Source: an uncultured Clostridium sp.
Lineage (GTDB): Bacteria > Bacillota > Clostridia > Lachnospirales > Lachnospiraceae
Length of the DNA stretch: 51,582 bases
Direction: 5' to 3'
Assembly (NCBI GenBank): GCA_945917985.1
Contig: CAMEIH010000017.1
Coordinates: 1 to 51,582, forward strand
The translations under genes were made by a program, and so were the position numbers. Below are positions 35,445 through 51,580 of the stretch, in pieces. Position 1 is the first letter of the stretch, and each line of letters starts with the position of its first letter. Below the pieces are notes generated by a model. That model searched no databases. It saw nothing but the letters and a program-made list of their open reading frames with translations, and was not told the origin of the DNA.

Positions 35445-37547
35445 CTATACTGTTTCCTGATTCGCAACAGGCTCATCGCTCTTTTTGGGAACATTGGTAA
35501 CAAATCCGCAATTTTCATTGGAACATACCAGTTTATTTCCCTTGTAGAGCATCAGGGAACCGCAGCGCTCGCATTTCATGGAAGAAGGTCTCTGCCATAC
35601 CATAAAATCGCAATCGGGATTGTCAATACAGCCATAGTACTTTCTTCCTTTTTTCGTTTTCTTTAACACAATATCCTTGCCGCACTTGGGACATGCCACC
35701 CCAATCTTTTCAAAATAAGGTTTTGTGTTGCGGCATTCCGGGAAGCCGGGACATGCAAGGAACCGTCCGTGAGGTCCGTATTTGATGACCATTTTCCGTC
35801 CGCAAACCTCACAGGTCTCATCAGAAACCTCATCCTGGATCTCCACTTCCTGCAGTTCCTTCTCCGCATTCTTTACCGCTTCATCAAGGTCAGGATAGAA
35901 ATTGGACACTACTGTCTTCCAATTCACGCTTCCCTCTTCCACTCCATCCAGAAGAGCCTCCATATTAGCGGTAAAATTCACATCCACAATGCTGGGGAAA
36001 GCATCCTTCATCATATTATTGACCACTTCCCCGAGCTCCGTCACATACAGATTCCTGTTTTCCTTGACCACATATCTCCTTGCGAGAATGGTGGTAATGG
36101 TAGGTGCATAGGTACTGGGCCGTCCGATGCCAAGCTCTTCCAGGGCACGAACCAAAGATGCCTCGGTATAATGAGGGGCAGGCTGTGTAAAGTGCTGCTT
36201 CGGGTCAAACTTTTCAAGAGTAAGCTTTGCGGAAGCATCAATTCCCTTTACGAGGGTATTGTTTTCTTCCTTCTCCTCCTCATCCGTATAAACGCTCATA
36301 AAGCCTTCAAACACCACTCTTGAGGCCGCTACGGTAAAGCGATGGTTTCCGCCGTCAATCTTAACCGATGTCGTTTCATATTTAGCAGGCGCCATACGGC
36401 TTGCCGTAAAGCGCTTCCAAATCAGCTGATACAGTCTGAACTGATCTCTGGAAAGGGAATCCTTGAGAAGTGCCGGTGTATTGTTTAAATCAGTCGGTCG
36501 GATTGCCTCATGGGCATCCTGGATCTTCTGATTGTTCTTTTTACTCTCTGTATTTTCTGCGGCGAATTCATTGCCGTAATTCTTTTTGATGTATTCCTCC
36601 GCCATGGCTTCCGCTTCTTTGGAAACTCTGGTGGAATCCGTACGAAGATAAGTGATCACACCGACAGTGCCGCTTCCCTTAATATCAATTCCTTCATAGA
36701 GCTGCTGTGCCAGGCGCATGGTCTTCTGTGTGGAAAAATTAAGTACTTTACTTGCCTCCTGCTGGAGAGTGGAAGTGGTAAACGGCAGGGGTGCTTTCTT
36801 GACTCTCTCCCCTTTCTTCACTTCACTCACATGATACTGCGCATGGTCAAGTTCTTTCACTATTCTATTCAGTTCTTCCTGTGAAGAAATTGTCACCTTG
36901 CCATCCTTTGTTCCGTAGTATTTAGCGGTCAAGGCTTTCTTTTCCCCCGGGATTTTGAAAGAAGCATCCAGGGTCCAGTATTCTTCCGGAATAAAGTTAT
37001 TGATCTCATCCTCTCTGTCACAGATAATGCGAAGTGCCACAGACTGCACACGTCCCGCACTCAGGCCTCTCTTAACCTTAGCCCAAAGAAGCGGTGAAAT
37101 GCGGTATCCAACCATACGATCAAGGACACGTCTTGCCTGCTGGGCATCCACCAGATCCATATTGATCTCTCTGGCGTTCTTTAAGGATTCCTTTACCGCA
37201 TTCTTGGTGATCTCATTAAATGTGATACGATATACCTTCTTATCTTCCAGCTTAAGCGCCTTATAAAGATGCCAGGATATCGCTTCTCCCTCACGGTCAG
37301 GGTCGGTTGCCAGATAAATTTTCTCTGCTTTCTTTACTTCTTTTCTCAAATTTGCGAGGATATCGCCCTTGCCTCTGATGGTGATGTATTTGGGCTCATA
37401 ATCATGCTCTACATCAATTCCAAGCTGGCTCTTAGGCAGATCACGGACATGCCCGTTGCTTGCCGTAACCTCATAATTCGGACCTAAGAACTTCTTAATC
37501 GTTTTTACTTTGGCAGGTGACTCCACAATTACCAGATACTTTGCCAT
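35445..37547 (-). CDS. topA: DNA topoisomerase I
   Basis: Type IA topoisomerase that relaxes negative supercoils. The start is ATG at 37545-37547 (MAKYLVIVES), with AAAGGGGTATGAAAA upstream. The 700-residue protein has the TOPRIM domain (IVESPAKVKTI, TDPDREGEA), the catalytic Tyr300 in ITYLRTDSTR, and three C-terminal four-cysteine zinc ribbons (CEVCGRKM..., CPKCGKDI..., CERCGSLM...). It is 183 nt upstream of the codY start. In Bacillus the two are separated by trmFO, codV, clpQ and clpY. Confidence 0.97.
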   Translation of the reverse strand: MAKYLVIVESPAKVKTIKKFLGPNYEVTASNGHVRDLPKSQLGIDVEHDYEPKYITIRGKGDILANLRKEVKKAEKIYLATDPDREGEAISWHLYKALKLEDKKVYRITFNEITKNAVKESLKNAREINMDLVDAQQARRVLDRMVGYRISPLLWAKVKRGLSAGRVQSVALRIICDREDEINNFIPEEYWTLDASFKIPGEKKALTAKYYGTKDGKVTISSQEELNRIVKELDHAQYHVSEVKKGERVKKAPLPFTTSTLQQEASKVLNFSTQKTMRLAQQLYEGIDIKGSGTVGVITYLRTDSTRVSKEAEAMAEEYIKKNYGNEFAAENTESKKNNQKIQDAHEAIRPTDLNNTPALLKDSLSRDQFRLYQLIWKRFTASRMAPAKYETTSVKIDGGNHRFTVAASRVVFEGFMSVYTDEEEKEENNTLVKGIDASAKLTLEKFDPKQHFTQPAPHYTEASLVRALEELGIGRPSTYAPTITTILARRYVVKENRNLYVTELGEVVNNMMKDAFPSIVDVNFTANMEALLDGVEEGSVNWKTVVSNFYPDLDEAVKNAEKELQEVEIQDEVSDETCEVCGRKMVIKYGPHGRFLACPGFPECRNTKPYFEKIGVACPKCGKDIVLKKTKKGRKYYGCIDNPDCDFMVWQRPSSMKCERCGSLMLYKGNKLVCSNENCGFVTNVPKKSDEPVANQETV

Positions 37548-37588
37548 TTTTTCATACCCCTTTATCACGAAAACTAGTAACGTGCTAA

Positions 37589-37617: not shown

Positions 37618-37670
37618 GTAAAAAATTATTAAGTTACTATAAATTTTTATTTTTAGGGGGGAAATTTAGT

Positions 37671-37829
37671 GTCATGGTCTTCAAAAATCAACTCAAGGCT
37701 CATGTGCACGATGCGCTCCAATGAGCCTCAAAGCTTAAAAGCGTGTTCAGCAAAGGCTTCCACGGTTTTATGAGTCTCATTTACGCCGTGCCCAAAATCG
37801 CCGCAAGTTGATTTTTTGAAGAGCATGAC
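37671..37829 (+). repeat. Structured intergenic repeat, copy A
   Basis: This non-coding element is closed by a near-perfect inverted repeat of 23-24 bp (37671-37693 with 37806-37829). Inside are hairpin 1 (AGGCTCAT 37696-37703 with ATGAGCCT 37721-37728), hairpin 2 (37737-37745 with 37761-37769, one internal mismatch) with loop TTCAGCAAAGGCTTC, and a candidate pseudoknot GCACG 37706-37710 with CGTGC 37787-37791. The trailing CCAAAATCG is shared with the other copies. Confidence 0.85.
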
Positions 37830-37856
37830 AGGGCAGGTTTCCGAAAAATACAAGAA

Positions 37857-37896
37857 AAACAGGAAGAGGCATCTCTAAGATGATTTCTTCCTGTTT
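37857..37896 (-). terminator. Terminator after the pilus operon
   Basis: On the minus strand AAACAGGAAGA pairs with TCTTCCTGTTT, with an inner CATCT/AGATG helix, followed by a T-rich stretch. It lies 34 nt after the last pilus-locus gene. Confidence 0.75.
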
Positions 37897-37930
37897 CTTC
37901 TTATTATATATGTTATTATTTTAGTACAAG

Positions 37931-40900
37931 TTAGTTGAGCATGAAAGAGTCACGGAAGATAACAAACACTGATACGGTATCACTCTTTCCCTTTTCATCT
38001 GTTGCAGTGATCAGATACTGCATCATCCTCGTGCCATTCCATCCGCCTTCCGCATCAACAAAATCTCCTCTCACATCACAGGTATATTCGGTATCATAAG
38101 CGGGACTGTTTTGTGACTGAATCACATCCCCCGAAGCCGCTCTCTTAACCACCAGACTCGACAATGCATTGGGATCCGTCACCTCTTCGGGTGTCCACGA
38201 TACTTTATAATTTACATAAAAAGCATCTGCATCAATCATCATATACTCATCCAAATAAAAATAATATGAGACAGCTGTATTCTGCATATCAGGAATCTTA
38301 GTATAATCTGCATTTGTTACAAGTACCTTTGGAGTACTGGTTTTTTTGCTCGTTCTGTTATGCATAATTCTAAAGATATTAAGCATTTGACCGGGATTTT
38401 CAAAAATATAGCCATAGGTATATGGTGCATACCAGGTTCTGCCACTGTTTTCTTCAACATCCTTACCATATATGGAATTGTCATTCATGAAGCTTTCTAA
38501 GGCACCATTCAGCACACCGGAATCGTTCCAATCTGCATTCATATATCCGGAACCATTATCTATAAGTTTTCGAACTTGAAAGTATTTAACTTCCCACTGA
38601 TCATCAAAGGTCTGCTCTAAATCAGTTTTATTATTTATATGAATAATTCCCTGATTATATAAGCCATGATCATTCATATACAAAGACACCTTGCAACCAT
38701 CTGTCGGCAGAATGGTAGAATAACCATCATTGTTTTCCCAATGCTCTGTATTTTCCATATAGCCATTGATAAAGTTTGCAAACTCTGCCGGATCATCAAA
38801 TAAATCCACAAAATAATATAATTTGCCAAAATTATCAACTGTTCTTGTACCGGACATATGTCCATATCCCGATTCCCGCAATGCAGGCGCATCCAACATA
38901 AGAGCCGTAGTTGGCGTCTTTCCATCTTCATGATAAAGACAATTCTTATAAATTGCCATCAGCACTTCATCCGAAATCACATCTCCATCTGCAAATCTCA
39001 ATGGATTAGGCATAGGCGGTAAATCCGCTGCAATATGATCATCAATTTTTTCCCAATCACTACTGCTTTGTAATACATAAATACCAACACTCTGTGCGAT
39101 ATAGATCAAATCAGCATTTTCAACTTCCTCAACTGTAAGCGCGGAGGGAGTTCTCTGGATAATTTCTATCCGATATTTTTGGTCAAAAGCGGCAATATTT
39201 TCCTTGTATCGTTCCAAAATTTCCTTACCGGATTTTCCCGCAGCATAATCTGCAGCCGCTAATCCCTGGGTGTCATCCTCATTTGCCATATAAATCAGAA
39301 GCTTAAACCATTCGTTACTCACAAAACCATGCTGTGCATAATATCGATTTTTTCTGTTTTGATTATATACATAAATCCGTTTTGGTATTTTTCCATCTTC
39401 AAGCTCTTCCAGTTTTGTGATTCCATTGGTTTCATCGCTGGAAACAGTGTGGAATACCCAATCACCTTTCTCGCCCAAATAGCCCAAACTAGTATCCGGA
39501 TTGCTGTTGATTTGTCCCACACATAAGCCTACAGGCTGCTCACCATCTCCATACCACCCTTGGGAACTTGTATTATAATCAATTCCAAGGCAGTCTATGT
39601 TAGTGACAACCTTAGAATAGTCTCCTTTCTCACCTGATACTTTAACATATAAATTATCCTCTGAGGGTTCTTTACTTGTTAACGCATACGTACCTTCTCC
39701 ATCTGTGATTCTGACAATTTCAGCAGTATATAATGTTACCCCTGGCAACAGATTAGAATAAATAAAATTAACTTCACAGGTTCCTTTCCCTTCACCTGCA
39801 TACTCAAAAACAAATGTTTCAATATTTGTTGTTGTACTAACAGCCGCAGGAGATAAGACATATTTTCCATTGCCGGGAGCTACGGATTGAAAAGCCAATT
39901 CATAATAGGTATCACCGGCTACTATTTTACTCTTGTCACTCTCCTCGCTGTACAATCTGAAATATCCAGCCGGCATATCGGCAACACCATCTGTTTTTTT
40001 CTCATTCTCAACTCTAATATATTTGCCTACTAAATTATTCAACCCGCTTGTTATATCCGCATCTGTTACATTATGGGCTACAACACTTGAAGTATCAACA
40101 GCATAATTTCCTTTATCCCAATAAGTATAGCCGGCGCTCCAGGAAAATTCATCTTTCAATCTGGCCTGATAGTCATATTGTCTGCCATCTTCGACACTCT
40201 CGCTGAGTTTTACTGTAAATTTTTCTGCACGATAGGTAAAATCCGTACCCGACCCTGAAGATGCTTCCAAAAATTTCAAATCATAATTATACTCTGTTTT
40301 TTGCTTGATATCACTTGTCGGATAAGATCCGCTTGAGTTCTTTGACCAGTAATAAGCCGGATCCTTTACCTGCCATTCACCTTTTGGTGCTTCATTTTCC
40401 TTTCTCTCCATGGCTCTTACTCTATAACGAATACCATGATCGGTTGTATTTTCAGCTTTAATAATATTGTCAGGATTTAAATTAATGCTATAAAGGCCCT
40501 TATTATTTCCAACATATTCAAAGTACCCGCTTGCTGTAATGTTGGAGTCAATCTCGACTTCACGCCACCACAAATCGCTACCGTTTGAACTGTTCTTTGT
40601 TGTTAAATTTACACTATAATCTGTCAACGTCGGGCTGGTAACTCCACCATCCAAATAACTATAAATACCATTATAGGAATTAAATTGTGTATTGCCTGTC
40701 ATACTGGAGGCCATATACCTTATTCCGTCATATCCCAAAGGTGTATTTTTATCATATTCCTCCTTTGATCCCCACTCTATCAAATACGGAAAAATAGAAC
40801 ATGCCTCATGCGGAATCACTTCCACAATCCTGATTACTTCTCTCCTGTCTCCTTCTGCCGCTGCGGGTGCGGGCTGATTCAGGAAAATACGGGTTGCATT

Positions 40901-41095
40901 CTCTTTCGCTGATACGGCTCCTGCTTCCTTTTCAAGTGCTGTCACCTCAGCACTCTCCAAATCATCTGCCGCATCCTTTTTATTGGAAAAATGCAGAAAA
41001 ACACCTGCAAATATGCATAAACATGCCACAAATAAGACGCAGCCAAGTGCAACATATAATATTTTGTTTTCCTGTTTTTGTCCTTTTCGCTTCAT
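37931..41095 (-). CDS. Large membrane-anchored surface protein, candidate pilus tip protein
   Basis: This 1,054-residue protein is the last gene of the pilus locus. The start is ATG at 41093-41095 (MKRKGQKQ) because GAAGGAAAAGAAC precedes it; a GTG 12 codons earlier is possible. One membrane helix (about 13-36) is followed by a large extracellular part. Near its start is RIVEVIPHEACSIF, and the C-terminus looks like an Ig-type beta domain (YLITATDEKGKSDTVSVFV). There is no prepilin motif. The central region may fall in DUF5057, a memory-based guess. Position after the minor pilins recalls PilY1 and other tip adhesins. Confidence 0.75.
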   Translation of the reverse strand: MKRKGQKQENKILYVALGCVLFVACLCIFAGVFLHFSNKKDAADDLESAEVTALEKEAGAVSAKENATRIFLNQPAPAAAEGDRREVIRIVEVIPHEACSIFPYLIEWGSKEEYDKNTPLGYDGIRYMASSMTGNTQFNSYNGIYSYLDGGVTSPTLTDYSVNLTTKNSSNGSDLWWREVEIDSNITASGYFEYVGNNKGLYSINLNPDNIIKAENTTDHGIRYRVRAMERKENEAPKGEWQVKDPAYYWSKNSSGSYPTSDIKQKTEYNYDLKFLEASSGSGTDFTYRAEKFTVKLSESVEDGRQYDYQARLKDEFSWSAGYTYWDKGNYAVDTSSVVAHNVTDADITSGLNNLVGKYIRVENEKKTDGVADMPAGYFRLYSEESDKSKIVAGDTYYELAFQSVAPGNGKYVLSPAAVSTTTNIETFVFEYAGEGKGTCEVNFIYSNLLPGVTLYTAEIVRITDGEGTYALTSKEPSEDNLYVKVSGEKGDYSKVVTNIDCLGIDYNTSSQGWYGDGEQPVGLCVGQINSNPDTSLGYLGEKGDWVFHTVSSDETNGITKLEELEDGKIPKRIYVYNQNRKNRYYAQHGFVSNEWFKLLIYMANEDDTQGLAAADYAAGKSGKEILERYKENIAAFDQKYRIEIIQRTPSALTVEEVENADLIYIAQSVGIYVLQSSSDWEKIDDHIAADLPPMPNPLRFADGDVISDEVLMAIYKNCLYHEDGKTPTTALMLDAPALRESGYGHMSGTRTVDNFGKLYYFVDLFDDPAEFANFINGYMENTEHWENNDGYSTILPTDGCKVSLYMNDHGLYNQGIIHINNKTDLEQTFDDQWEVKYFQVRKLIDNGSGYMNADWNDSGVLNGALESFMNDNSIYGKDVEENSGRTWYAPYTYGYIFENPGQMLNIFRIMHNRTSKKTSTPKVLVTNADYTKIPDMQNTAVSYYFYLDEYMMIDADAFYVNYKVSWTPEEVTDPNALSSLVVKRAASGDVIQSQNSPAYDTEYTCDVRGDFVDAEGGWNGTRMMQYLITATDEKGKSDTVSVFVIFRDSFMLN

Positions 41096-41139
41096 GTTCT
41101 TTTCCTTCATTTCTATCCTTGTATCTGCCACTCCAAATG

Positions 41140-41937
41140 TTATAAGCCCGGATCACGAAGATACTTTATCATTCCTTTACCGTCATTTCTCTGAATATAC
41201 ACAGAATCAAGACGATTTCTCACGGAGACATTATCATCCATCTGTCTTGTGGTTGACTTACCGTTCTGGTATTCATATTCAAATTCCATATTTACATGAA
41301 TTGTCAGCGGATTGGTAAAATAATTCTTACCAATTCTCTTTTTCTCAGTCTCTGTCATCTCATCTTCAGATTTAGTACTCGGCTTAACAATACAACTGTC
41401 CAGTGTTTCCAGTTCAAAAGCCGTAACATACTGTGCCATCAAGTAGGGAAGCCGTGCATCTCCGTAAGCGGGAAGCTGTCCCTTCATTGCTGCGATTGCC
41501 TCAAGAGGAGCCTGGGCTTCATCGGTATAAGTACCAAGATCATAATTGCCTGTCATCAGATACATTTCACGGTACTTTGGCTGCCAGTAAATGGCCGTGC
41601 CTATAAAGGTCATGTTTTTTACATTTTTATCAAATTTTAATTCCCCAAAAAGGGCGCAGGTCATATCATCTGTAGCCGGATCAAGAGTCGACGCATCCTG
41701 TTCTATATAGCAGGCTCCCTTTGCAGATAGAATTGTGTCTATCACAAGATTTAAGGATGTCTGGGATTCATTCTGGATCTCCACGTTTGCATTGGCTCTT
41801 CCATAAAACTGCAGTACAGAAAAAATAATATAGCTGAGTCCCGCAAGTATGATTGCACTGACCGCAAAAGCCACCAGAAGTTCCACCAGCGTCATACCTT
41901 TATTATTTCTTTTTCCTTTCTCACTTGTACTCCACAT
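41140..41937 (-). CDS. Minor pilin-like protein (PilW/ComGF-like)
   Basis: This 265-residue protein has a prepilin leader: cleavage is expected after NNKG, before MTLVELLVAFAVSAII with the conserved Glu5. A single hydrophobic helix is followed by polar sequence and a globular part that ends RYLRDPGL. It overlaps the upstream minor pilin by 17 nt. Minor pilins prime pilus assembly as a tip complex. The PilW-type label rests on its order and size. Confidence 0.82.
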   Translation of the reverse strand: MWSTSEKGKRNNKGMTLVELLVAFAVSAIILAGLSYIIFSVLQFYGRANANVEIQNESQTSLNLVIDTILSAKGACYIEQDASTLDPATDDMTCALFGELKFDKNVKNMTFIGTAIYWQPKYREMYLMTGNYDLGTYTDEAQAPLEAIAAMKGQLPAYGDARLPYLMAQYVTAFELETLDSCIVKPSTKSEDEMTETEKKRIGKNYFTNPLTIHVNMEFEYEYQNGKSTTRQMDDNVSVRNRLDSVYIQRNDGKGMIKYLRDPGL

Positions 41938-42406
41938 AATGTTTTCCGGTTCCTTTAACTAAAACAACAGTTGCTTTCTTCCCATTATTGTTCTCCGATG
42001 TTATGCGTAAAATCCCGTCACTTGATTCCGGTGACATGGACAGCACTTTTCCGGTGGATTTATCAAACTGTACCGTTACTGTAGTTGCCCCGGGATCCGT
42101 AGGAGATGAAATGGTAACCCTTCTCTGCAGATCTTCCGTAACAACAGGCTCCGATTCCTCCGAGTTTTTGATATACAGCATATTGTTGGTCATATCGAGT
42201 TCCATGGTAAAATTACCTTTTTCAGACATGGACATCATTCTGGTATTTTCCAGTGCAGAATTAATTGTCTTTGCACACTTTTCCGCATCTCTGCTGTATG
42301 CCAGAGAGATGCTGATGGATGCCCCTCCAACTGCTATGCTCATAATAGCCACCACTACCAGAATCTCAATCAATGTAATGCCTTTGTTATTCCAAAGTTT
42401 TTTCAT
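41921..42406 (-). CDS. Minor pilin-like protein (GspH/FimT-like)
   Basis: The start is ATG at 42404-42406 (MKKLWNNKG) after GAGAGGAAAGC. The 161-residue protein has a prepilin site before ITLIEILVVVAIMSIAV with Glu5. The C-terminal domain of beta strands (VTISSPTDPG, VTVQFDKSTGKVL, VVLVKGTGKHYV) fits the GspH/FimT fold. It is 10 nt after the large PilX-like gene. Confidence 0.86.
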   Translation of the reverse strand: MKKLWNNKGITLIEILVVVAIMSIAVGGASISISLAYSRDAEKCAKTINSALENTRMMSMSEKGNFTMELDMTNNMLYIKNSEESEPVVTEDLQRRVTISSPTDPGATTVTVQFDKSTGKVLSMSPESSDGILRITSENNNGKKATVVLVKGTGKHYVEYK

Positions 42407-42416
42407 GCTTTCCTCT

Positions 42417-44831
42417 CTACGTGGAAGCCGATGCTTCTCCTTTTCGCCAGTTATTGTAATAAATATAGTCGGTATATTCCGTACCTGTAACTCTCTTTTC
42501 CATATCAATCAGCTTATTTTTATCCAAATCAATCAGAACTGTATTCTTAAAATAGTATGCAGCATAATCTTCTACTTTGATTTCGTCGATCTTGTCCTCT
42601 TCCGTTTCAAGAACACTTCTCTGCTCTGCTTCCAGAACGGACTGTACAAGTCCTCTGTTTGCCTTGACACTGAGATTTCCCTCCAAGGTAATCTTTCCCG
42701 TCGCAATAATAAGCCCCTCAAAGCTACCGCCATTTCCCTTCACAAGAAGATTACCGTCGCAAAGAACGATTCCCTTCTTCTTCTCTGCTGAAAGGTCAAG
42801 CACGGAATTTGTTCCCGAAAGAATCCATACGCGGGCATTCTTGACGCCCTCCACTTCACGCCCCTCAAACTTATTGGGCAATGTACCTCCGGTCAGCTTA
42901 TCCAGATTCATGAAATTAGCAAGAGGATAATCCGTACTGATCTTTTTGCCGTCTTCCACAGCATCCAGCTTGTTGGGCTCCAGATTCACATAAAGCTGTG
43001 CATAGTGCTTTTGCATATTGTTACTGCGATTTGCCATATCATCCAAAGCAATTCCATTCTTCTTGAAGGTTTTATCAGCCTCGTCTGTATCTGTTAACAG
43101 TCCTGTGGTGTAAACCTTGGTACTGCCTGCACCTCCTGCCTTTATGGTAATATGAGATGCTATGCTGGAGTTATCTGCTCTTTTCAATATCTCCTGCTTT
43201 AATTCCCACTTCTGTTTCGCTGCAGCTTCGCCCTCTTCTCCGGGATCTGTTGCCGTCATAATATCATTTACATAATTAATTTCCTGTCCATTCAGAATAT
43301 TAAGATAATAATAGGTGTAGCTTTTTCCATTATCATTGTAAACCACCGGAATTACAGGTTTGTTCTTATCCAGATATTTATTTCCAAACCATTCTGCCAA
43401 TTTCAGATTATCCTCAGAGGGGCAGATCTCACTCACATCGGTGCTTCCCCCTAACTGGGGATTGGATACCCCTTTCAAAATATCAGTGGGAGCCAGATAA
43501 AGAAACTGGTTATATCGCATAGCAATGGATTCTCCTGTGCGGAGTTCCTGTGCCTCTCCCGTCGCCAGGTCTTTATATGCCTTTTCTCCATCCTTGATAT
43601 CCACATACGCCACACCCGCTACCATCAGTGTGTTAAGACCGGTCAGATCAAGCGTAGAATTCATGCCGTTTATCACAATCGCACTGCTGGTTGTATGCGC
43701 AGCCTGCATTTTTTCGCCTGCCGCATACTTATCCTTTATGTTGCTGTTTTCAAAAGTCGTATAAACTGTACTTCCGCTGTTATTAAAGTTATAACCGTAA
43801 TAATTTCCGGAAAGTGTAACACTGCTGTTTCTGGCATTCAATTCCAGATCATCAGCCGTATAAATATTCGCTCTTGCATTTAACGTTGACGGTGTAACAG
43901 TCTGCTTTAACACAGGAGAAGCCGGTTTTCCATCTTCTACCGTTCTGATGTTTTCCACCCAGAGATTAGTCTGTGCTTCCTTGGTAGGATCCGGCGATTC
44001 AATAGTAACTCCTGATTCACAGATATTAAAATCTCCCTTGGAAATAATATAACTGGAATCTGTAAATTTCACAGTGGACTTATAGAAATTCATACCATCA
44101 TACAGTTCCGACCCGTAAAGATATCCATTGTACGATGCATTTGCACCGGCACTGTCAATTCCCGCATAAACATTTCCCTCCACAAAAGCGCTAGCGGAAC
44201 TGAATGTAATCCCCTTATTTCCAATCAGAGAATAATCAAGGAACTGACTGAAATCCTGATAAAAATTAATATAAGGCACTTCTATCACAATATCTGTCGT
44301 GATCACAGACTCATATTTGTCATCTTTTACATACTTAACTTTTACATCCTCCAGCACATACTGCCAAAGCTCTGCGCCAGTCTCCGGATCGGGTACAATA
44401 CTAGCTCCATTATAAGAAGTAACCTGCAATTGTTCATTCGTTTCACTTCTTGAAATATAAGAATTTAATTTCACCAGGGTTTCATCTTTGGCCACATTAT
44501 CCCCTTCACCGTACAGTGCAGTCAGTTCATTCTTAAACATTCCTGCAAAAGCAACATACGCCGCATTCTGCGTAGGATATTGTCCCGTAGTATTGGCTTC
44601 AATCAGTGTTTTAGAATAAGATCTCTGAAGTGCTGCCGAAACATCTCTTCCGATACCATTGTAAATATCGTCAAGACCGATTTCATCCACATAGAAATTC
44701 TGCTTCATGGCATACTCAATCTGCTTCATCCTCAAATTGGCCGAGCTCACCGAAATAATGATTGATGCAAGAATAACAAGAAAGCTGACAGCTACCAATA
44801 CAATGATCAAAGTAGAGCCGCTATTATTCAA
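42417..44831 (-). CDS. Giant PilX-like minor pilin, 804 residues
   Basis: The best start is TTG at 44829-44831, giving a 5-residue leader (MNNSG) directly before STLIIVLVAVSFLVILAS. GAGGAG lies 7 nt upstream, and the codon comes 13 nt after the stop of the preceding gene. Longer frames overlap that gene. A pilin-type helix is present but Glu5 is replaced by Ile, as in PilX/GspK-type subunits. The rest (about 100-804) is a very long extracellular region that includes repeated beta-type segments such as SVTLSGNYYGY, LDLSAEKKKGIVLCDGN, NGGSFEGLIIATGKI. The size is far above the usual 150-300 residues. Confidence 0.82.
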   Translation of the reverse strand: MNNSGSTLIIVLVAVSFLVILASIIISVSSANLRMKQIEYAMKQNFYVDEIGLDDIYNGIGRDVSAALQRSYSKTLIEANTTGQYPTQNAAYVAFAGMFKNELTALYGEGDNVAKDETLVKLNSYISRSETNEQLQVTSYNGASIVPDPETGAELWQYVLEDVKVKYVKDDKYESVITTDIVIEVPYINFYQDFSQFLDYSLIGNKGITFSSASAFVEGNVYAGIDSAGANASYNGYLYGSELYDGMNFYKSTVKFTDSSYIISKGDFNICESGVTIESPDPTKEAQTNLWVENIRTVEDGKPASPVLKQTVTPSTLNARANIYTADDLELNARNSSVTLSGNYYGYNFNNSGSTVYTTFENSNIKDKYAAGEKMQAAHTTSSAIVINGMNSTLDLTGLNTLMVAGVAYVDIKDGEKAYKDLATGEAQELRTGESIAMRYNQFLYLAPTDILKGVSNPQLGGSTDVSEICPSEDNLKLAEWFGNKYLDKNKPVIPVVYNDNGKSYTYYYLNILNGQEINYVNDIMTATDPGEEGEAAAKQKWELKQEILKRADNSSIASHITIKAGGAGSTKVYTTGLLTDTDEADKTFKKNGIALDDMANRSNNMQKHYAQLYVNLEPNKLDAVEDGKKISTDYPLANFMNLDKLTGGTLPNKFEGREVEGVKNARVWILSGTNSVLDLSAEKKKGIVLCDGNLLVKGNGGSFEGLIIATGKITLEGNLSVKANRGLVQSVLEAEQRSVLETEEDKIDEIKVEDYAAYYFKNTVLIDLDKNKLIDMEKRVTGTEYTDYIYYNNWRKGEASAST

Positions 44832-44844
44832 TTGTCTTCTCCTC

Positions 44845-46149
44845 TTATTTGTCAATTTTCGTAGCCTCCACATGTGCAACCCGCTTATTAGAATCACTCT
44901 GATCAAACATTTCTATCTCCACTGCATAACCCACCGTCTTATATTTTGATCTGCCGATTGTCTCACTCTCTTTATCTGCATCCAATTCAAAACTCTGCCC
45001 GTTTACCTTTACATTGGTCAAAAATTTTCCATTTGTTCCGGCTATTGTCCTCTCTCCCGGCGTAATTCCTGACTTGACGAAAAAATTTTCACTGTAAACT
45101 TCATCATTTACAGTAATCTTGTTAAAATTATAGAACTTATCGCTGCCGCTCTTTTTCCCTAAAATAAAATAAATGTTGGTATCACCTGTACTCTTGATCT
45201 CCAATTCATTGACACATTGGTTTAGTCCGGTTGCATCCATAAATGCTCTTGCAAAAATGAAAGCATTACCCCCCGACTCACTTCCCTTTTCCGTGCCGGA
45301 TGCCGGATACAATTCATAATCTGCTTTATAAACACAATAGCTTAACTCTGCCTCTGCTGTACCAGTTTTCGGATAACTGTAAGTGACATCACAGCGCGCA
45401 CTCATCTGTGCAGAAGTCTCTCCTCCTGACGAAGGTGATTTTACAGAAACAAGTACAGTCTTTTTCATGTTTGCCAAAATATCTGCATCCGTAAGGGTTG
45501 TTTTCCCCTCCGCTGCCAATTTTGTCAAAAGCTCGGAAACACAGATATCATCGTACATATTAATCTCATCCGAAATCACCGGAAACCTCACGGCATCAGC
45601 CTGGGCAACATCATAGAAGCCTGATACATTCACATTTGCCGCCGTAGTCTGATCAAACTGGCTATATTCAGCAGGCATAAATTTTGCATGCATGGTGTAT
45701 TTTCTGCCGCCGATGTCGATATCCTTTTTCTCACAGATAAAGGGGGTAAACATGGCATCGATTGCAGCCGATTCCTCCGCCGTAATATCTACCGGCTTAC
45801 TAAAACTGCTTTCTATCTCATTTGCTCTCGTTATCGCTGCATCAAGTTCTGTACCTGAAGTGATATAGGAATAGGACACACCATCCGAAATAACGCCGCC
45901 TTTGAAGTCTTTGACATAATCCTCCACAGAGATGCTTTTGATGGTCTCCAGTTCCTCCTGCGCATAAGCCGTCACCTTTTGGGTATTATGGGCTTTGTTG
46001 TTCAGGGTGGCAGAAAGACGAATTCCGGCAAATAAAGGCACACAGGTCAGTGCAATCAGCGCAATACAAACAAGGACTTCCACCAAACTAAAGCCCTTGT
46101 CTGTAAATGTTCTGTTTTTATCATTTTTTTCACTGACCACGTGCTGCAT
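44845..46149 (-). CDS. Minor pilin-like protein (PilV/GspI-like), 434 residues
   Basis: A 19-residue leader ending TFTDKG precedes FSLVEVLVCIALIALTCVP with Glu5. The 434-residue protein then has a long extracellular part without cysteine pairs typical of disulfide-stabilised pilins. It is larger than usual PilV. The start is ATG at 46147-46149 with a weak ribosome site. It lies 38 nt after the PilO-like gene and leads the minor pilin set. Confidence 0.83.
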   Translation of the reverse strand: MQHVVSEKNDKNRTFTDKGFSLVEVLVCIALIALTCVPLFAGIRLSATLNNKAHNTQKVTAYAQEELETIKSISVEDYVKDFKGGVISDGVSYSYITSGTELDAAITRANEIESSFSKPVDITAEESAAIDAMFTPFICEKKDIDIGGRKYTMHAKFMPAEYSQFDQTTAANVNVSGFYDVAQADAVRFPVISDEINMYDDICVSELLTKLAAEGKTTLTDADILANMKKTVLVSVKSPSSGGETSAQMSARCDVTYSYPKTGTAEAELSYCVYKADYELYPASGTEKGSESGGNAFIFARAFMDATGLNQCVNELEIKSTGDTNIYFILGKKSGSDKFYNFNKITVNDEVYSENFFVKSGITPGERTIAGTNGKFLTNVKVNGQSFELDADKESETIGRSKYKTVGYAVEIEMFDQSDSNKRVAHVEATKIDK

Positions 46150-46187
46150 CTTCTGTTAAATCCCTGCTTTTCTTTCCATGTTCAGAA

Positions 46188-47342
46188 CTAATTGATGATA
46201 ATATTTCCTTCAGTTCCCTTGATCGTCACTCTTGGCTTCTCTGCGTCATCATTCAAGGTAGTTACCTTGACGATTGCGTCTGAGGTATTATAGATATTCA
46301 GACTGATCTCCACCTTGTCCGAATCGTCCAGACGGGAAGAGCTGATGATCTGCAGTTCAATATTACCATCCTTGTCAAAATCCACACCGGCATCGTCATA
46401 TTTTGTTTTGCCGATCTCATAATAAGCATTATACTTTCCGGTCTCACCTTCAAAGTAAATGTTTACTTCCTGCTTTGCATTCTTCGTAGAAGACAGATAA
46501 GTAGATTCCGTCACATCATTGCTCTGTCCCACAATAATGGCATCCACATCAGCTCCGGGCTGGTTTAACAGGATAAAGAAATCAGGAGATGCGGCTACTT
46601 CTGTCGTATCAAAATTTCCGCTTGCCTGTTTAAACACGTTGGTGGTTCCCTGAATCATGTTTGGCTCTAAGAACTGCACTGCATTCCTTCCCTCACCCTT
46701 AAGTGCATACTGGCTTAATGTCAGGTTGCCGCTCACGAGATTCATCTCTCCCGAATAGCTTGCTTCCAGCTCTGTGATCACCATGCGGTCATGATAATCT
46801 GCGATATACTTCAAAAAGTCCTTAAACTCTTCATATCCTGCGTCATAGGCAAACCTTGTCTGGGTCTGTATTCCTGTCAAGCCAAGTCCCAGGCTGGTTG
46901 TCTGTGTGTTATCCTCAATTACCTCTGTCTGGGTTGTATCTCCGGTCTCTGCCTCAACATCCTCAATAGCCTGCTCTTCTGCGGCGGAAGTAACCTGTGC
47001 CGCTACATCATCCCCAAAGGCTACCTGATACAGAGAAATGGGTATCATTTGCTCAGTGTTGTGGATAAATAAGATACTTGCCTCCTGAGGCAGATCAGAC
47101 GGGAATTTTGAGAGCAGCTCCGTTTCCATCGCTGCCATCTGCTCCGCTGCTTTTCCGTACTCTTCCTCCATGAGGGCCAGTTCTTCCCTGTATTTTACCT
47201 GCGCATTCAGATCCGAGATTTCCTTTCCCAGATTGTCCACCTTATCCATTAAAGGCTGGATGATAAAGAAGTAAGGAACGCAGACAATAATCACAATCAC
47301 AAGAATCAGCAATAATTTTTTGTCTCTCTCGCTTAATTTCAT
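46188..47342 (-). CDS. PilO-like alignment protein
   Basis: PilO forms the periplasmic part of the alignment complex with PilN. This 384-residue protein has an N-terminal membrane helix (about 9-30), a coiled coil (about 33-75, DKVDNLGKEISDLNAQVKY in parts), then a globular domain (about 90-230) with YEEFKDFLKYIADYHDRMVI, the ferredoxin-like signature part, and an extra C-terminal beta domain of about 130 residues. Its ATG overlaps the stop of the upstream gene as TAATG. The assignment is by topology and context. Confidence 0.85.
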   Translation of the reverse strand: MKLSERDKKLLLILVIVIIVCVPYFFIIQPLMDKVDNLGKEISDLNAQVKYREELALMEEEYGKAAEQMAAMETELLSKFPSDLPQEASILFIHNTEQMIPISLYQVAFGDDVAAQVTSAAEEQAIEDVEAETGDTTQTEVIEDNTQTTSLGLGLTGIQTQTRFAYDAGYEEFKDFLKYIADYHDRMVITELEASYSGEMNLVSGNLTLSQYALKGEGRNAVQFLEPNMIQGTTNVFKQASGNFDTTEVAASPDFFILLNQPGADVDAIIVGQSNDVTESTYLSSTKNAKQEVNIYFEGETGKYNAYYEIGKTKYDDAGVDFDKDGNIELQIISSSRLDDSDKVEISLNIYNTSDAIVKVTTLNDDAEKPRVTIKGTEGNIIIN

Positions 47343-48940
47343 TACTGTGCTCCTCCTTCCTCACCGGTAGTCTGTGTTTCGCCTTCTGTTTCCTCCGCCG
47401 GGAAGATCAGCTGCCACTTCATATTGAAGTTTGATGTTTTGCCGCCGAGTTCTGCGTTTGTATCCAGAATATCCTCCACTCTCACATCGGTAACATAAGG
47501 AAGCTTTTTCAGTTCAATCACAAATTTTGCCAAGGCATCCTTTCCGTCAGAAATACCCGTCATCTCCACACTGCCGTTTTTGATGGAAATATCTATGATT
47601 CCGACACTCTCCGGCATTACCTGTTCCAGATCAAGAATCATCTGATAGGTCATTTCGGAAGGATTCTTTGTGCTGTTATAGTAATTATTGATCACATCAT
47701 AATTCTGCTTGGCCGTAAGATATTCATTGTAAGTTGCTTCCGCAGTTCCAAAACTGTTAAGTCTGGCCTGCAGATTCTTTTTTTCATTCTCAAGAGTACT
47801 TGCGGACCAGATCAAAAATCCGATACTTCCTCCCACCGAGAGAGTTGCAAGAACAATAAGAATAATAAAGATGGTATAGCTTCCCGTTCCTTTCTTTTCT
47901 TCCTCCACTTTAAGATCCAGCGGTTGAATCAAAGCACCAATACAGGGAAGATAATCCACAATCTTCTCATAATTAAGACCTGCAGGATTATTTTTTGCGA
48001 TCTTAACCCCTGCCAGTTCCTTGATCAGCGTAACTTCAATACCAAGTTCCCTTCCGAGGACCTGAGGGAATCCGATCAGATCAATACCTGTTCCCATCAG
48101 CTTCACCAGTTCTATGGTAGTGCCCGGATTCCGGCTGGTATGGAACTCTGCCACTCTGGTAACAGAGGAGGAAAAATCTTTAATGATCTCACTGTACTCA
48201 TCCGGTGTCAGTTCCATATCCACCTTACGTGGATCGAGCAGCGTATCCTCTGCCTCTTCCTCTGTGAGTCCTTTAAACTCTGCCAGATTACGAATGATGG
48301 TATCCCGTCCATAGGGAATGGAACGCTTGAACAGCTGTGTTTTACCTCTCATGATACTGATGTTACTTACATTTCTGTCCATCTGGATTGCCAGCACGGT
48401 TCCCTGATTCAACTGCTTTTTCAAGAGCTGATAAAGAGAGTTATTGTAATAATCAACTGTGATTACCGGCATCTTCATCATATCTGCCAGCTGATAATAC
48501 CCTTCCACCATCTGCTTCTGGAATGCCATCACAAGAACGGAGATATGTTTTCCTTCCGCATTCTCAAAGGTATCCAGAATCGTATATCTGAAAATATAGT
48601 CTTCCAGATTATTCATCGGAAAATAGTCTTCCACATTGGCATTGATGATCTCTTCTATCTTTTTTTGATTTTTCATATAAGGAAGCACGATTTCCTTATT
48701 TGCAATTCTCTTGGAAGAAATTACAAAAGCAATCTTGCCTCTTTTAATTCTGTTGTTCTTCAGTGCGGCATATAGCGCTTTGGCAGCTCCTTCCACATCC
48801 TGAATCATACCGTCCTCAACGGTTCCTGTAGTAAGGGGAACTTCAAACGCATTCTTTACAGTAACTGCGTTGCTGCTTTTATTTAATTCGCAGACACGCA
48901 TTCCTTCGTTTTCCACGTAAACGGAGAGTATTCTTCCCAT
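47342..48940 (-). CDS. PilM-PilN fusion protein of the type IV pilus alignment complex
   Basis: This 532-residue protein joins two usually separate parts. Residues 1-345 are an actin-like PilM domain (RILSVYVENEGMRV at the start; LAIQMDRNVSNISI and LMGTGIDLIGFPQ further in). A membrane helix follows at about 355-379. Residues 380-520 look like PilN, with a coiled coil, then VGIIDISIKNGSVEMTGISD. The usual INLL peptide by which PilN binds PilM is not needed here. The tail is Glu/Gly/Thr-rich. The ATG lies 11 nt after AGGAGG. Overlap with the PilO-like gene implies coupling. Confidence 0.88.
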   Translation of the reverse strand: MGRILSVYVENEGMRVCELNKSSNAVTVKNAFEVPLTTGTVEDGMIQDVEGAAKALYAALKNNRIKRGKIAFVISSKRIANKEIVLPYMKNQKKIEEIINANVEDYFPMNNLEDYIFRYTILDTFENAEGKHISVLVMAFQKQMVEGYYQLADMMKMPVITVDYYNNSLYQLLKKQLNQGTVLAIQMDRNVSNISIMRGKTQLFKRSIPYGRDTIIRNLAEFKGLTEEEAEDTLLDPRKVDMELTPDEYSEIIKDFSSSVTRVAEFHTSRNPGTTIELVKLMGTGIDLIGFPQVLGRELGIEVTLIKELAGVKIAKNNPAGLNYEKIVDYLPCIGALIQPLDLKVEEEKKGTGSYTIFIILIVLATLSVGGSIGFLIWSASTLENEKKNLQARLNSFGTAEATYNEYLTAKQNYDVINNYYNSTKNPSEMTYQMILDLEQVMPESVGIIDISIKNGSVEMTGISDGKDALAKFVIELKKLPYVTDVRVEDILDTNAELGGKTSNFNMKWQLIFPAEETEGETQTTGEEGGAQ

Positions 48941-48988
48941 CGGCTACTCTTCCTCCTTTATCTGTTTGCATCTAAGTTGTTTAATAGA

Positions 48989-49216
48989 TGCTGATATCAA
49001 AAAGTCTGTATGACTATTCATTATACGTCATCAGTAATCAAAATGTTTATGACTCATGTGTGCTAAACATTTCAATGAGCCTTTGAACATACAAACGTGT
49101 TCAGCATAGGCTTCCACGTTTGTATAAAGTCTCATTTCCATAGCACCAAAATCGTCATAAATCATTTTGATTATTGATGACGAAAAAATATATTATGAGA
49201 GTCTTTGATATCAGCA
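48989..49216 (+). repeat. Structured intergenic repeat, copy B
   Basis: The outer arms are the longest of the three copies: 48989-49053 is complementary to 49154-49216 with small gaps. Hairpin 1 is GACTCAT 49051-49057 with ATGAGCC 49075-49081 (one mismatch). Hairpin 2 is an 11-bp perfect stem, ATACAAACGTG 49089-49099 with CACGTTTGTAT 49115-49125, and loop TTCAGCATAGGCTTC. The candidate pseudoknot is GTGCTA 49060-49065 with TAGCAC 49141-49146. The element fills most of the 281-bp gap between the peptidase gene and the PilM-PilN gene. Confidence 0.87.
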
Positions 49217-49221
49217 CCTTA

Positions 49222-49977
49222 CTATAAATTAAACATGCCCAAATACCATGTTATAAGATTATTTCCGTAGAGCATTGAAATAAAAATACCAAACGCCAAA
49301 TAAGGACCGAATGCTAAAACTCTGTCCTTTCCCTGCACCTTCATCAAGGTAAGATGTATGACAGAACCGGCGATAGAGCCTATCATCAGTGCAAGCAGTA
49401 TATTCTGCCATCCGAGCAGAAGCCCTGCCGCTGCCATCAGCTTAATGTCTCCGCCGCCAATACCTCTTCCTTTGGTTATCCAATATATAATTAAAAACAG
49501 TCCACTTACAGCAAAAAAACCTATCACATAGTCATACCAATGTGCCAGGTCTAAAATCACCCGGACAATACCTAAAATTCCGATGACGATATTACATCCA
49601 AAGGGAATCTCATATGTCCTCCAGTCTATTACACTTATCACAATCAATACAGAAGCACATATGCAAAACAGTATGCTCTCCGGCTGAAATCCCTTCGCCA
49701 TAAATATCCACACATAGATCAGACCGTTTAACAGTTCAATCAGTGGATACTGCACAGAAAGCTTTGTCTTACAGTTTCTGCACTTTCCACCCTGTACAAG
49801 AAAGCTGAACAGGGGAATGAGTTCATACCATTTCAAAACGTTCCCACAGCTCATGCAGTGGGAACGTTCGAAAACTATATCTTCTTTTTTAGGTATCCGG
49901 TAAATACATACATTCAAAAAACTTCCAATGGATATTCCAATCAGGAATATCATGATGTATAGGATTATGTATTCCAT
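49222..49977 (-). CDS. Type IV prepilin peptidase (A24 family)
   Basis: This membrane aspartic peptidase cleaves prepilin leaders and methylates the new N-terminus. The 251-residue protein has an N-terminal cytoplasmic zinc module with Cys41-Cys44 and Cys66-Cys69, then six or more helices. Both catalytic aspartates are visible: Asp118 in VIDWRTYEIP and Asp177 in GIGGGDIKLM. It directly follows the major pilin gene, which matches its substrate. PilD/ComC symbols are both in use. Confidence 0.95.
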   Translation of the reverse strand: MEYIILYIMIFLIGISIGSFLNVCIYRIPKKEDIVFERSHCMSCGNVLKWYELIPLFSFLVQGGKCRNCKTKLSVQYPLIELLNGLIYVWIFMAKGFQPESILFCICASVLIVISVIDWRTYEIPFGCNIVIGILGIVRVILDLAHWYDYVIGFFAVSGLFLIIYWITKGRGIGGGDIKLMAAAGLLLGWQNILLALMIGSIAGSVIHLTLMKVQGKDRVLAFGPYLAFGIFISMLYGNNLITWYLGMFNL

Positions 49978-50005
49978 TAGGGAACCTCATTTAAAAACTG
50001 CTTCA

Positions 50006-50527
50006 TTATGAATCTCCGCCAGCAGGTGTAGTAGGAGCGTCACCACCAACGGTAATCTGATGTCCATTTCCATCATTGCTTCCAGTAATAGTTACTGTTA
50101 CTCTGTTACCAGTTGCATCAATGGTCGCTGTAATCCCTAAAGTGCCATCAGCTGCTCCATCTGATTGTAATTCAGAAACAATTCCGTTAGCACCCACCAT
50201 TTCATCAACAGATGCATATCCTAAAGTTGCTGCAACAGAAGTACCAAAAGCGCCAGTAAATCCCGCATTGCTAGAGAAATTCAATACTGTATCGGGAGCT
50301 GGAACTCCAGGAGTAGGTGCACTAATAACAGCCGGATCAAGCATAGCTGTTGTAACTGCTGTTCGAACTGAATCTGCAATTTGCGTATCAGCAGAAACTC
50401 TCGTTCTTTCAACATATCTCAGTAACTGAGGTGCCATAACACCAACTAAGATTGCCATGATGGCAATAACGATAATAAGTTCAACGAGGGAAAAACCCTT
50501 GTTACCGATTGATTTTTGCTTTTTCAT
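50006..50527 (-). CDS. Major pilin-like prepilin (type IV, GspG/PilA-like)
   Basis: This 173-residue prepilin has an 11-residue leader ending GNKG, then FSLVELIIVIAIMAILVGVM with Glu5. The hydrophobic helix is typical of pilins. The globular domain is small, rich in Ala, Gly, Thr and Asp and lacks cysteine, with the end TTPAGGDS. The ATG follows AAAGGAGAGATAAGAA. A promoter and a leader hairpin precede it, which fits high expression. It opens the pilus operon. Confidence 0.92.
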   Translation of the reverse strand: MKKQKSIGNKGFSLVELIIVIAIMAILVGVMAPQLLRYVERTRVSADTQIADSVRTAVTTAMLDPAVISAPTPGVPAPDTVLNFSSNAGFTGAFGTSVAATLGYASVDEMVGANGIVSELQSDGAADGTLGITATIDATGNRVTVTITGSNDGNGHQITVGGDAPTTPAGGDS

Positions 50528-50555
50528 TTCTTATCTCTCCTTTAAACCTCTTTGT

Positions 50556-50584
50556 CAGGAGTATCGGTCCTTAAATCACTCCTG
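50556..50584 (-). promoter_or_regulatory. Leader hairpin of the pilin mRNA
   Basis: CAGGAGT and ACTCCTG form a 7-bp stem (50556-50562 with 50578-50584) in the pilin leader, between the promoter and ribosome site. It could stabilise the mRNA 5-prime end. Confidence 0.5.
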
Positions 50585-50597
50585 CGTTTATAGTGCT

Positions 50598-50626
50598 ATT
50601 TTACTACTTTATCGTCATTTTGTACA
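50598..50626 (-). promoter_or_regulatory. Sigma-A-like promoter of the pilin operon
   Basis: On the minus strand TGTACA (50621-50626) and TAAAAT (50598-50603) are spaced by 17 nt, about 70 nt before the pilin start. The -35 matches 4 of 6 bases. Confidence 0.55.
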
Positions 50627-50688
50627 GAATATTTTACATTTTTCTTCAAAATTCTTTCATAAATTACAATAATTTTCCAACATACAAA

Positions 50689-50952
50689 TTAGTAGTCATT
50701 TTGCCTTATTCTGTCATCCATCAGAATCGCGTACACATAGGAAGGTGCAGACAGGTCCTGAATCGGAACAGTATTGGAAAGTGGCATCAGCTGCAGTGCT
50801 TTCTCAAAGGTTCCTTTTCCCACATTGTAATTTGTTGTCGATAAGCGGACAGCGTTTCCAATGATCGTATAGGTAAACTCTTTTCCTCTTATCTGACGGA
50901 ACGTTTTCCCTTCCTGGTCACAAATTCTTTTCCAAATCACATCGATATTCAT
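50689..50952 (-). CDS. Small conserved hypothetical protein
   Basis: The start is ATG at 50950-50952 (MNIDVIWKRI), since GGAGG lies 8 nt upstream; a longer frame exists without such a site. The 87-residue protein contains EGKTFRQIRGKEFTYTI, NYNVGKGTFEKALQL and APSYVYAILMDDRIR. I recall this layout from a family of small proteins of unknown function in Firmicute mobile and defence regions. It is followed by the pilin promoter. No function is assigned. Confidence 0.7.
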   Translation of the reverse strand: MNIDVIWKRICDQEGKTFRQIRGKEFTYTIIGNAVRLSTTNYNVGKGTFEKALQLMPLSNTVPIQDLSAPSYVYAILMDDRIRQNDY

Positions 50953-51109
50953 TCTCATTTCCTCCCATAATGCTATATCGCTTTTATACTTCACCTTCCA
51001 GACGAGAAGCACAGTCTCCTCCGATGCATTCTCCCTCCGAAGAAATGCACGGAGCACGCTTGAAACAATCTTGTTATTCTTAACGCTTAATCATTCGAAT
51101 AGCAATCTG

Positions 51110-51304
51110 CTATACCGCATTGTCTCAAATCATTATCTGACGATTTTTGGCACTGCTGAAATACCAAACGCCGATACGTTTTGCGTATCGTCTTATTGGG
51201 CTCATAAAAACGTGGAAGCCTTTGCTGAACACGTTTTTAGTCTCTGAGGCTCATGGAAACGTTCAGTGCACATGAGCCATGATTTGATTTGAGACATTGT
51301 ATAG
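51110..51304 (-). repeat. Structured intergenic repeat, copy C (inverted)
   Basis: This copy lies in opposite orientation in the 370-bp gap between the last two genes. The outer arms are 51110-51132 and 51285-51304. Hairpin 2 is a 10-bp perfect stem, 51205-51214 with 51230-51239, and loop GAAGCCTTTGCTGAA, the complement of copy A. Hairpin 1 is GGCTCAT 51248-51254 with ATGAGCC 51272-51278. The candidate pseudoknot is CAGTGC 51264-51269 with GCACTG 51150-51155. An extra hairpin, CGATACG 51172-51178 with CGTATCG 51184-51190, is inserted between. Confidence 0.85.
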
Positions 51305-51322
51305 ATACTTAATATTTCACAC

Positions 51323-51580
51323 TTAATTCTCCCAGTGTAAATCAACTAGTTCCTTTGCTTCTTTCTCATCAAAACCATACTTATCGCAGAGGCGCCTCAT
51401 AACAAACTCCTTTGTTCCTCCACAGTCTCTCCCCATTTTAATAATTTCCATAACTGCTTTCTTCTCTGCTTTTTTCTCTGCTTCCTCTGCTTTTTTCTCC
51501 GCTTCCTCTGCTTTCTTTACAGCCTCCGCCGTCTTCCTCCGCTCTGCCTGTATATCCATCTTGTCCATGTTTGCAAACAA
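51323..51580 (-). CDS. C-terminal part of a probable Rpn-family protein (partial)
   Basis: The frame reaches the window edge, so the true start is probably outside. The visible 85 residues have a low-complexity repeat of KKAEEAE units (about 22-42), then a helical end with CDKYGFDEKEAKELVDL. Rpn-family (recombination-promoting nuclease, PD-(D/E)XK) proteins of Lachnospiraceae commonly end in this way. The nuclease core is not in view, so the identity is tentative. Confidence 0.45.
   Translation of the reverse strand: MFANMDKMDIQAERRKTAEAVKKAEEAEKKAEEAEKKAEKKAVMEIIKMGRDCGGTKEFVMRRLCDKYGFDEKEAKELVDLHWEN

Follow-up and report, generated by a model that had tools for sequence, protein, structure and literature searches.

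Covariation between paired strands is normally taken as proof of selection on RNA, and the three structured intergenic copies (A, B and C) in the window analysed here, the whole 51,582-nt stretch of DNA, raise the question of whether their changing but persistently paired stems have this origin. All three copies were found where the original prediction had placed them. Copy A (37670..37830, + in the orientation of the core model) has decayed outermost terminal inverted repeats (TIRs) and ends that cannot be fixed, and is flanked by a 1066-aa ORF (37931-41131, –) and a 707-aa ORF (35445-37568, –), the latter presumably resembling topoisomerase I; its conserved core (37698..37797, +) scores 111.9 bits with covariance model R1. 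Copy B (48987..49218, +) is 232 bp long between TIR-like ends, GATGCTGATATCAAAAAG and ..TTTGATATCAGCACC, that were set by eye, and its core (49052..49152, +) scores 100 bits; both A and B belong to the training set of R1. The core of copy C (51110..51304, –, again by the core model), which lies outside that set, scores 73.5 bits (51179..51277, –). The hairpin 2 stems are present (ATACAAACGTG/CACGTTTGTAT in B and TAAAAACGTG/CACGTTTTTA in C), as are the loop TTCAGCAWAGGCTTC and a third helix that changes as GCACG/CGTGC, GTGCTA/TAGCAC and CAGTGC/GCACTG; hairpin 2 of copy A has one G.G mismatch, where its G003 orthologue has a G-C pair. Relative to dinucleotide shuffles, single-strand RNA folding gave z values of –11.1 (+) and –12.2 (–) for B, –7.8 (+) for A and –6.8 (–) for C, with 0/200 shuffles as good as the native fold in each of the four cases. 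The outer arms pair within each copy. Their description as unrelated between copies applies to A, B, C and many other copies, but not to those in genome G052 or in a subfamily of G010, which have their arms in common.

The element occurs in several kinds of gut bacteria, most of them from a single family. A BLAST search with copy A finds 22 places in its own genome, A included, and R1, built from 42 copies, has 23 matches there. Across the genus the model matches 15 of the 37 genomes, counting the window's own, with up to 27 matches per genome. A second model, from 72 copies, was run with stricter filters at E ≤ 1e-6 on 150 genomes sampled from the whole family and matches 11, again counting the own genome. 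Alignments A1 and A2 hold 42 of 46 copies, the four with an inserted hairpin being left out, and alignment A4 holds 72 (68 of 79 dereplicated copies plus four earlier ones), the 11 left out having some part missing, very different or truncated. Among the matches listed from a scan of named genomes, using a pattern that fixes part of the core and from which the conservation of those letters was not counted, are Roseburia, Coprococcus comes, Blautia, Hespellia, Mediterraneibacter, Acetatifactor muris and Lachnospiraceae 28-4, as well as MAGs labelled Gastranaerophilales and Alistipes; L224, L257, L261 and L268 were excluded by eye as chance matches. The MAG labelled Gastranaerophilales carries at least eight loci (L218, L228, L233, L237, L239, L244, L280 and L284) with the same core helix, other arms and another apical hairpin, reflecting either horizontal transfer or a binning error. 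Viral contigs gave no match to the exact core pattern. Rfam searches at gathering scores gave no match in the window, those of seven loci gave two (a tRNA and TwoAYGGAY), both lying outside the element, and five weak matches to copy A at E up to 10 all fell below gathering scores. No Rfam family covers the element, in line with the original prediction, which did not recognise it as a named RNA class, and no description of the family was found in the open-licence literature.

The family that includes copies A, B and C is MITE-like and mobile, with multiple copies, no transposase gene and presence/absence differences between relatives. G000 carries copy L007, whereas the orthologous site in the sister species G003 has no element and, by eye, no palindrome; the site of L012 is likewise without the element in G003, where a deletion is possible. 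Two types of TIR surround the core, one GATTCGGGTGTCAAAAG-like (GAT-type) and the other TAGGTAATTGCGAAAC (TAGG type). Where both GAT-type TIRs are recognisable within 4 mismatches (45 copies), an exact 7-bp target duplication is found in 13 (0.45 in shuffled pairings) and a 7-bp repeat with at most one mismatch in 19 (1.15 in shuffled pairings), exact direct repeats of 5, 6, 8 or 9 bp occur in none, and 39 copies measure 232-238 bp (range 180-304). TAGG-type copies, found in G052, G015 and G016, measure 213-216 bp, and 16 of the 25 with both TAGG TIRs have a 9-13 bp target duplication (two of these with one mismatch; shuffle mean 0.71, maximum 4), divided by genome as 16/19 in G052 and 0/6 in G015/G016. 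The TAGG-type TIR occurs 125 times in G052 (L097-L116) at up to one mismatch, 62 times forward and 63 times reverse, with many pairs among those listed 215 bp apart; the element looks to have been recently amplified in this genome. The copies in the window are old, with TIR-like ends left only in B and no target duplication recognisable at any of the three. The original prediction had set a MITE aside on the ground that it would share its terminal repeats instead, and had named identical terminal repeats with target duplications in further copies as one observation that would count against its view. Such copies exist: elsewhere the family shares TIRs and has exact target duplications, and stretches matching the TIRs adjoin transposase ORFs, so this part of the prediction has to be abandoned.

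The ORFs in question encode candidate DUF772 transposases, one adjoining each TIR type in congeneric genomes with one end seen in each case (L163 and L357, the latter in two pieces; L159 is similar by eye). Both the L163 and L357 ORFs are above the Pfam cut-off for DUF772, DDE domains are just below theirs in L163, and scores with NCBIfam NF033551 (IS1182 family transposase) are 64.7 and 22.9 bits, respectively, below the cut-off of 270. The TAGG end is present in 13/37 genomes of the genus and the GATK end in 6/37. These searches turned up neither an autonomous copy with the core nor an IS with both ends; by eye, MITE and IS have only about their first 17-19 bp in common.

Covariation in this family is strong. 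In A4, 97.5% of 1725 cells are paired and 194 are changed on both sides, compared with 41.6 in shuffles (0/500 reach the native count), while 13 are changed on one side; template switching would yield just such a signal. The core pairs of 99 distinct copies comprise 2394 Watson–Crick, 22 GT (0.9%), 37 AC and 42 other pairs, in comparison to 12 GU and 0 AC among 155 pairs in a small control of seven tRNAs from the same loci. Mismatches in the arms (55 of 89 copies, arm score ≥ 60) amount to 91 GT and 72 AC distally and 37 GT and 61 AC proximally. In the TIR subfamily of G010, using 55 hand-chosen columns in eight of nine copies (L046, whose right arm is cut, was left out), derived arm states are two-sided in 19 cases and one-sided in 16 (shuffle mean 4.6, 0/20000 reach 19), and the two-sided coupling extends into the TIRs. 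The left-arm stretch CATCAGTAATC of copy B (49029..49039, +) and its right-arm partner GATTATTGATG (49169..49179, +) read CATAAGGAATC and GATTCCTTATG in the G003 orthologue, a difference in which both members of two pairs are replaced and one G.T becomes G-C, all within four bases. Twelve G000/G003 pairs were aligned and, among the alignments listed, paired changes form a clear cluster in copy B only; L014 differs by two arm changes, each of them one-sided. In nine of the 72 A4 copies the apical hairpin has been made symmetric from the 3′ side (GAAGC..GCTTC), and in one (L126) from the 5′ side (GTCAGC..GCTGAC), the direction being read from the majority form. Arms of up to 92 bp are 100% identical within a copy and differ from copy to copy. 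Template switching between the arms of a quasipalindrome is reported to give two-sided, clustered changes (PMC8794818). The near-pure Watson–Crick pairing, the coupling into the TIRs and the clustered paired changes in copy B therefore suggest template-switch correction of a quasipalindrome rather than RNA selection alone, and some of the two-sided changes may be ordinary compensatory selection.

Within the core there are mismatches that do not follow this pattern. Between GATGAG and CTC lies one position that is C.T in 93, T.T in four and C.C in two of the 99 distinct copies and never paired, whereas the pairs adjoining this Py.Py mismatch do vary two-sidedly. Both C.C copies have a 3′ strand interrupted by the 36-nt hairpin described below, and two G052 copies among the 99 have a different helix and apical hairpin and keep the C.T. 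The flanking 3x3 loop, TNC/TNC, has its 5′ T in 99 and C in 96 copies and its 3′ T in 90 and C in 88, again out of 99; these counts are from genus model matches, with the model trained on 42 copies. The apical hairpin is missing from a few copies (L133-L136 and L337). Because arm copying would otherwise erase mismatches, the unpaired core positions are probably kept by selection on the folded form. The proposal of selection on structure thus survives for the kept core mismatches, which call for it, but not for much of the two-sided change, which fits arm-to-arm copying.

Taken together, we consider it probable that A, B and C are old copies of a MITE of ∼235 bp that was moved in trans by DUF772 transposases, with arms corrected by template switching and a core under selection. 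In such a model DUF772 (IS1182/IS5-like) transposases, whose IS ends match the TIRs, would move the MITE in trans, and the whole element is a long imperfect palindrome on which the nascent strand could switch template to the opposite arm at replication. As a switch of this kind would copy a change in one arm to the other, the arms could drift and even turn unique to each copy and yet stay complementary, which would account for much of the compensatory change. On top of this, selection would keep the folded core, that is the helices around the unpaired C.T, the TNC/TNC internal loop and mostly the apical hairpin. The core most likely acts in its folded form, putatively either as RNA within the leader of a neighbour gene or in contact with the transposase or a host factor, which would encounter it as a cruciform or single strand. 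Directly observed in this picture are the family, its TIRs and target duplications, one empty site, the coupling of the arms and the kept mismatches; the copying process, the transposition in trans and the function of the core are deduced.

More tentatively, it is possible that the mobile element is read by its structure, a transposase or host factor recognising the folded single strand or cruciform via the fixed core mismatches. The arms would then be free to drift to any sequence since inter-arm copying keeps them paired. Integron attC sites are imperfect palindromes of variable sequence and conserved structure with fixed unpaired bases; the present element resembles them in each of these respects and differs from them in that its TIRs and target duplications are those of a DDE-type element. 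If this is true, a DDE-mobilised element has reached an attC-like principle.

It is rather unlikely that the element is instead a structured RNA with a function of its own, as a riboregulator or a processing site, that transposition happens to spread, with RNA selection behind all of the covariation, long arms included. Such an RNA would explain the 194 two-sided cells that 0/500 shuffles reach, and the mismatch that is Py.Py in 99/99 copies would read on the minus strand as A.G and, with its flanking loop, GNA/GNA, a common RNA motif. However, GU pairs are nearly absent, the distal arms are without clear strand bias, two-sided coupling reaches into the TIRs and Rfam gives no match. For either reading the indications of strand conflict. 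AC is in slight excess over GT (37 vs 22 in the core, 61 vs 37 in the proximal arms), which, like the purine (G.A) loops, motifs that are common in RNA, favours the minus strand, whereas in some lineages the orientation of insertion points to the plus strand. With 42 copies there was no GU and the broken cells were mostly AC, but the strand assignment drawn from this weakened when 99 copies gave 22 GT and 37 AC and is not maintained.

The position relative to neighbouring genes is consistent with a structured RNA in part of the family. Of the TAGG-type copies, 13/20 stand in the + orientation no more than 120 nt 5′ of a start, compared to 2/20 reversed, and in G015/G016 starts are downstream in the + orientation in seven and reversed in none of seven copies, one of which is common to the TAGG-type count. 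The corresponding numbers are 5 vs 0 of 7 for G007/G017, 10 vs 5 of 16 for G000, 8 vs 8 of 20 for G010 and 17 vs 16 of 53 for the named loci. Starts within 160 nt are found to the right in 55 and to the left in 35 of 125 copies, but outside G015/G016 (and with G052 not covered) the preference is weaker, at 48 vs 35 of 118, which speaks against the RNA reading. Strands of the neighbours, from naive ORFs at 85 copies with a few counted twice, are ++ in 34, –– in 15, –+ in 12 and +– in 10, with one side unknown in four and the element inside an ORF in 10.

If, on the other hand, the arms were host DNA, the core having inserted into the loop of pre-existing palindromes or flipped the flanking DNA, then differences between arms would derive from differences between targets. 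Arms unrelated between copies and nearly perfect within them would fit this, and there is a parallel in IS1272, of the IS1182 family, which is reported to direct its transposition to stem-loops (PMC5678879). This reading is nevertheless disfavoured and very improbable, as the target duplications stand outside the arms, the empty site of L007 is without a palindrome by eye, a search of the L131 and L258 genomes with the arms of these two elements gave no further significant match and 39/45 copies with two TIRs measure 232-238 bp. That the arms are guides, each variable arm having a matching target at another place in the manner of guide-RNA mobile systems, would agree with variable segments within an otherwise conserved element but is scarcely credible, the L131 and L258 arms having no significant second match in a comparison of these two elements with their own genomes only.

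Arms that are unique to each copy yet internally matched are, to our knowledge, unusual among bacterial MITEs. Our MITE is like such elements (QMITE2 of Coxiella, Chunjie-1; PMC10969869) in being short, with TIRs and a short target duplication, mostly intergenic and a stable stem-loop, with an IS as the likely transposase source, and unlike them in its often copy-specific matched arms, its conserved core with kept unpaired positions and its two TIR types around one core. It also resembles the IS1182-family ISs including IS1272, in that a DUF772 transposase ORF adjoins the same TIRs and structure-related transposition is reported there, but carries no transposase and has clear target duplications, whereas new IS1272 insertions are reported to have none (PMC5678879). 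The score of 64.7 bits against the NCBIfam IS1182 cut-off of 270 is a further difference. Two-sided clustered changes and perfect stems are shared with hairpins maintained by template switching, which in that work are in rRNA and microRNA genes and not, as here, in a bacterial mobile palindrome with arms of up to 92 bp (PMC8794818). The family is a sizeable natural one in which two-sided changes probably come from arm-to-arm copying and kept mismatches mark the selected part, making it a test bed for telling arm copying from selection. It also counsels caution when RNA motifs are sought in repeats.

Copy C contains an extra 36-nt hairpin, CCAATAAGACG(N)CGGCGTTTGG (51164..51199, –), that is missing from its G003 orthologue. 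The exact pattern occurs at six places in the own genome (window 51164-51199 (–), L016, L017, L019, L382 and L387), four of them inside element copies at nearly the same place and the remaining two with no element copy around them by eye. For three hairpin-bearing element copies a G003 orthologue was compared, and all three orthologues are hairpin-free. The hairpin looks like a second, nested mini-element.

At the contig end, an 85-aa ORF (window 51323-51580, –) with a KKAEEAEKKAEE run has no match in a Pfam search. A type IV pilus-like cluster, with genes for PilM/PilN, prepilin peptidase and N-methylation pilins, occupies window positions 47342-50527; copy B lies within this cluster and copy C past its last recognised gene.
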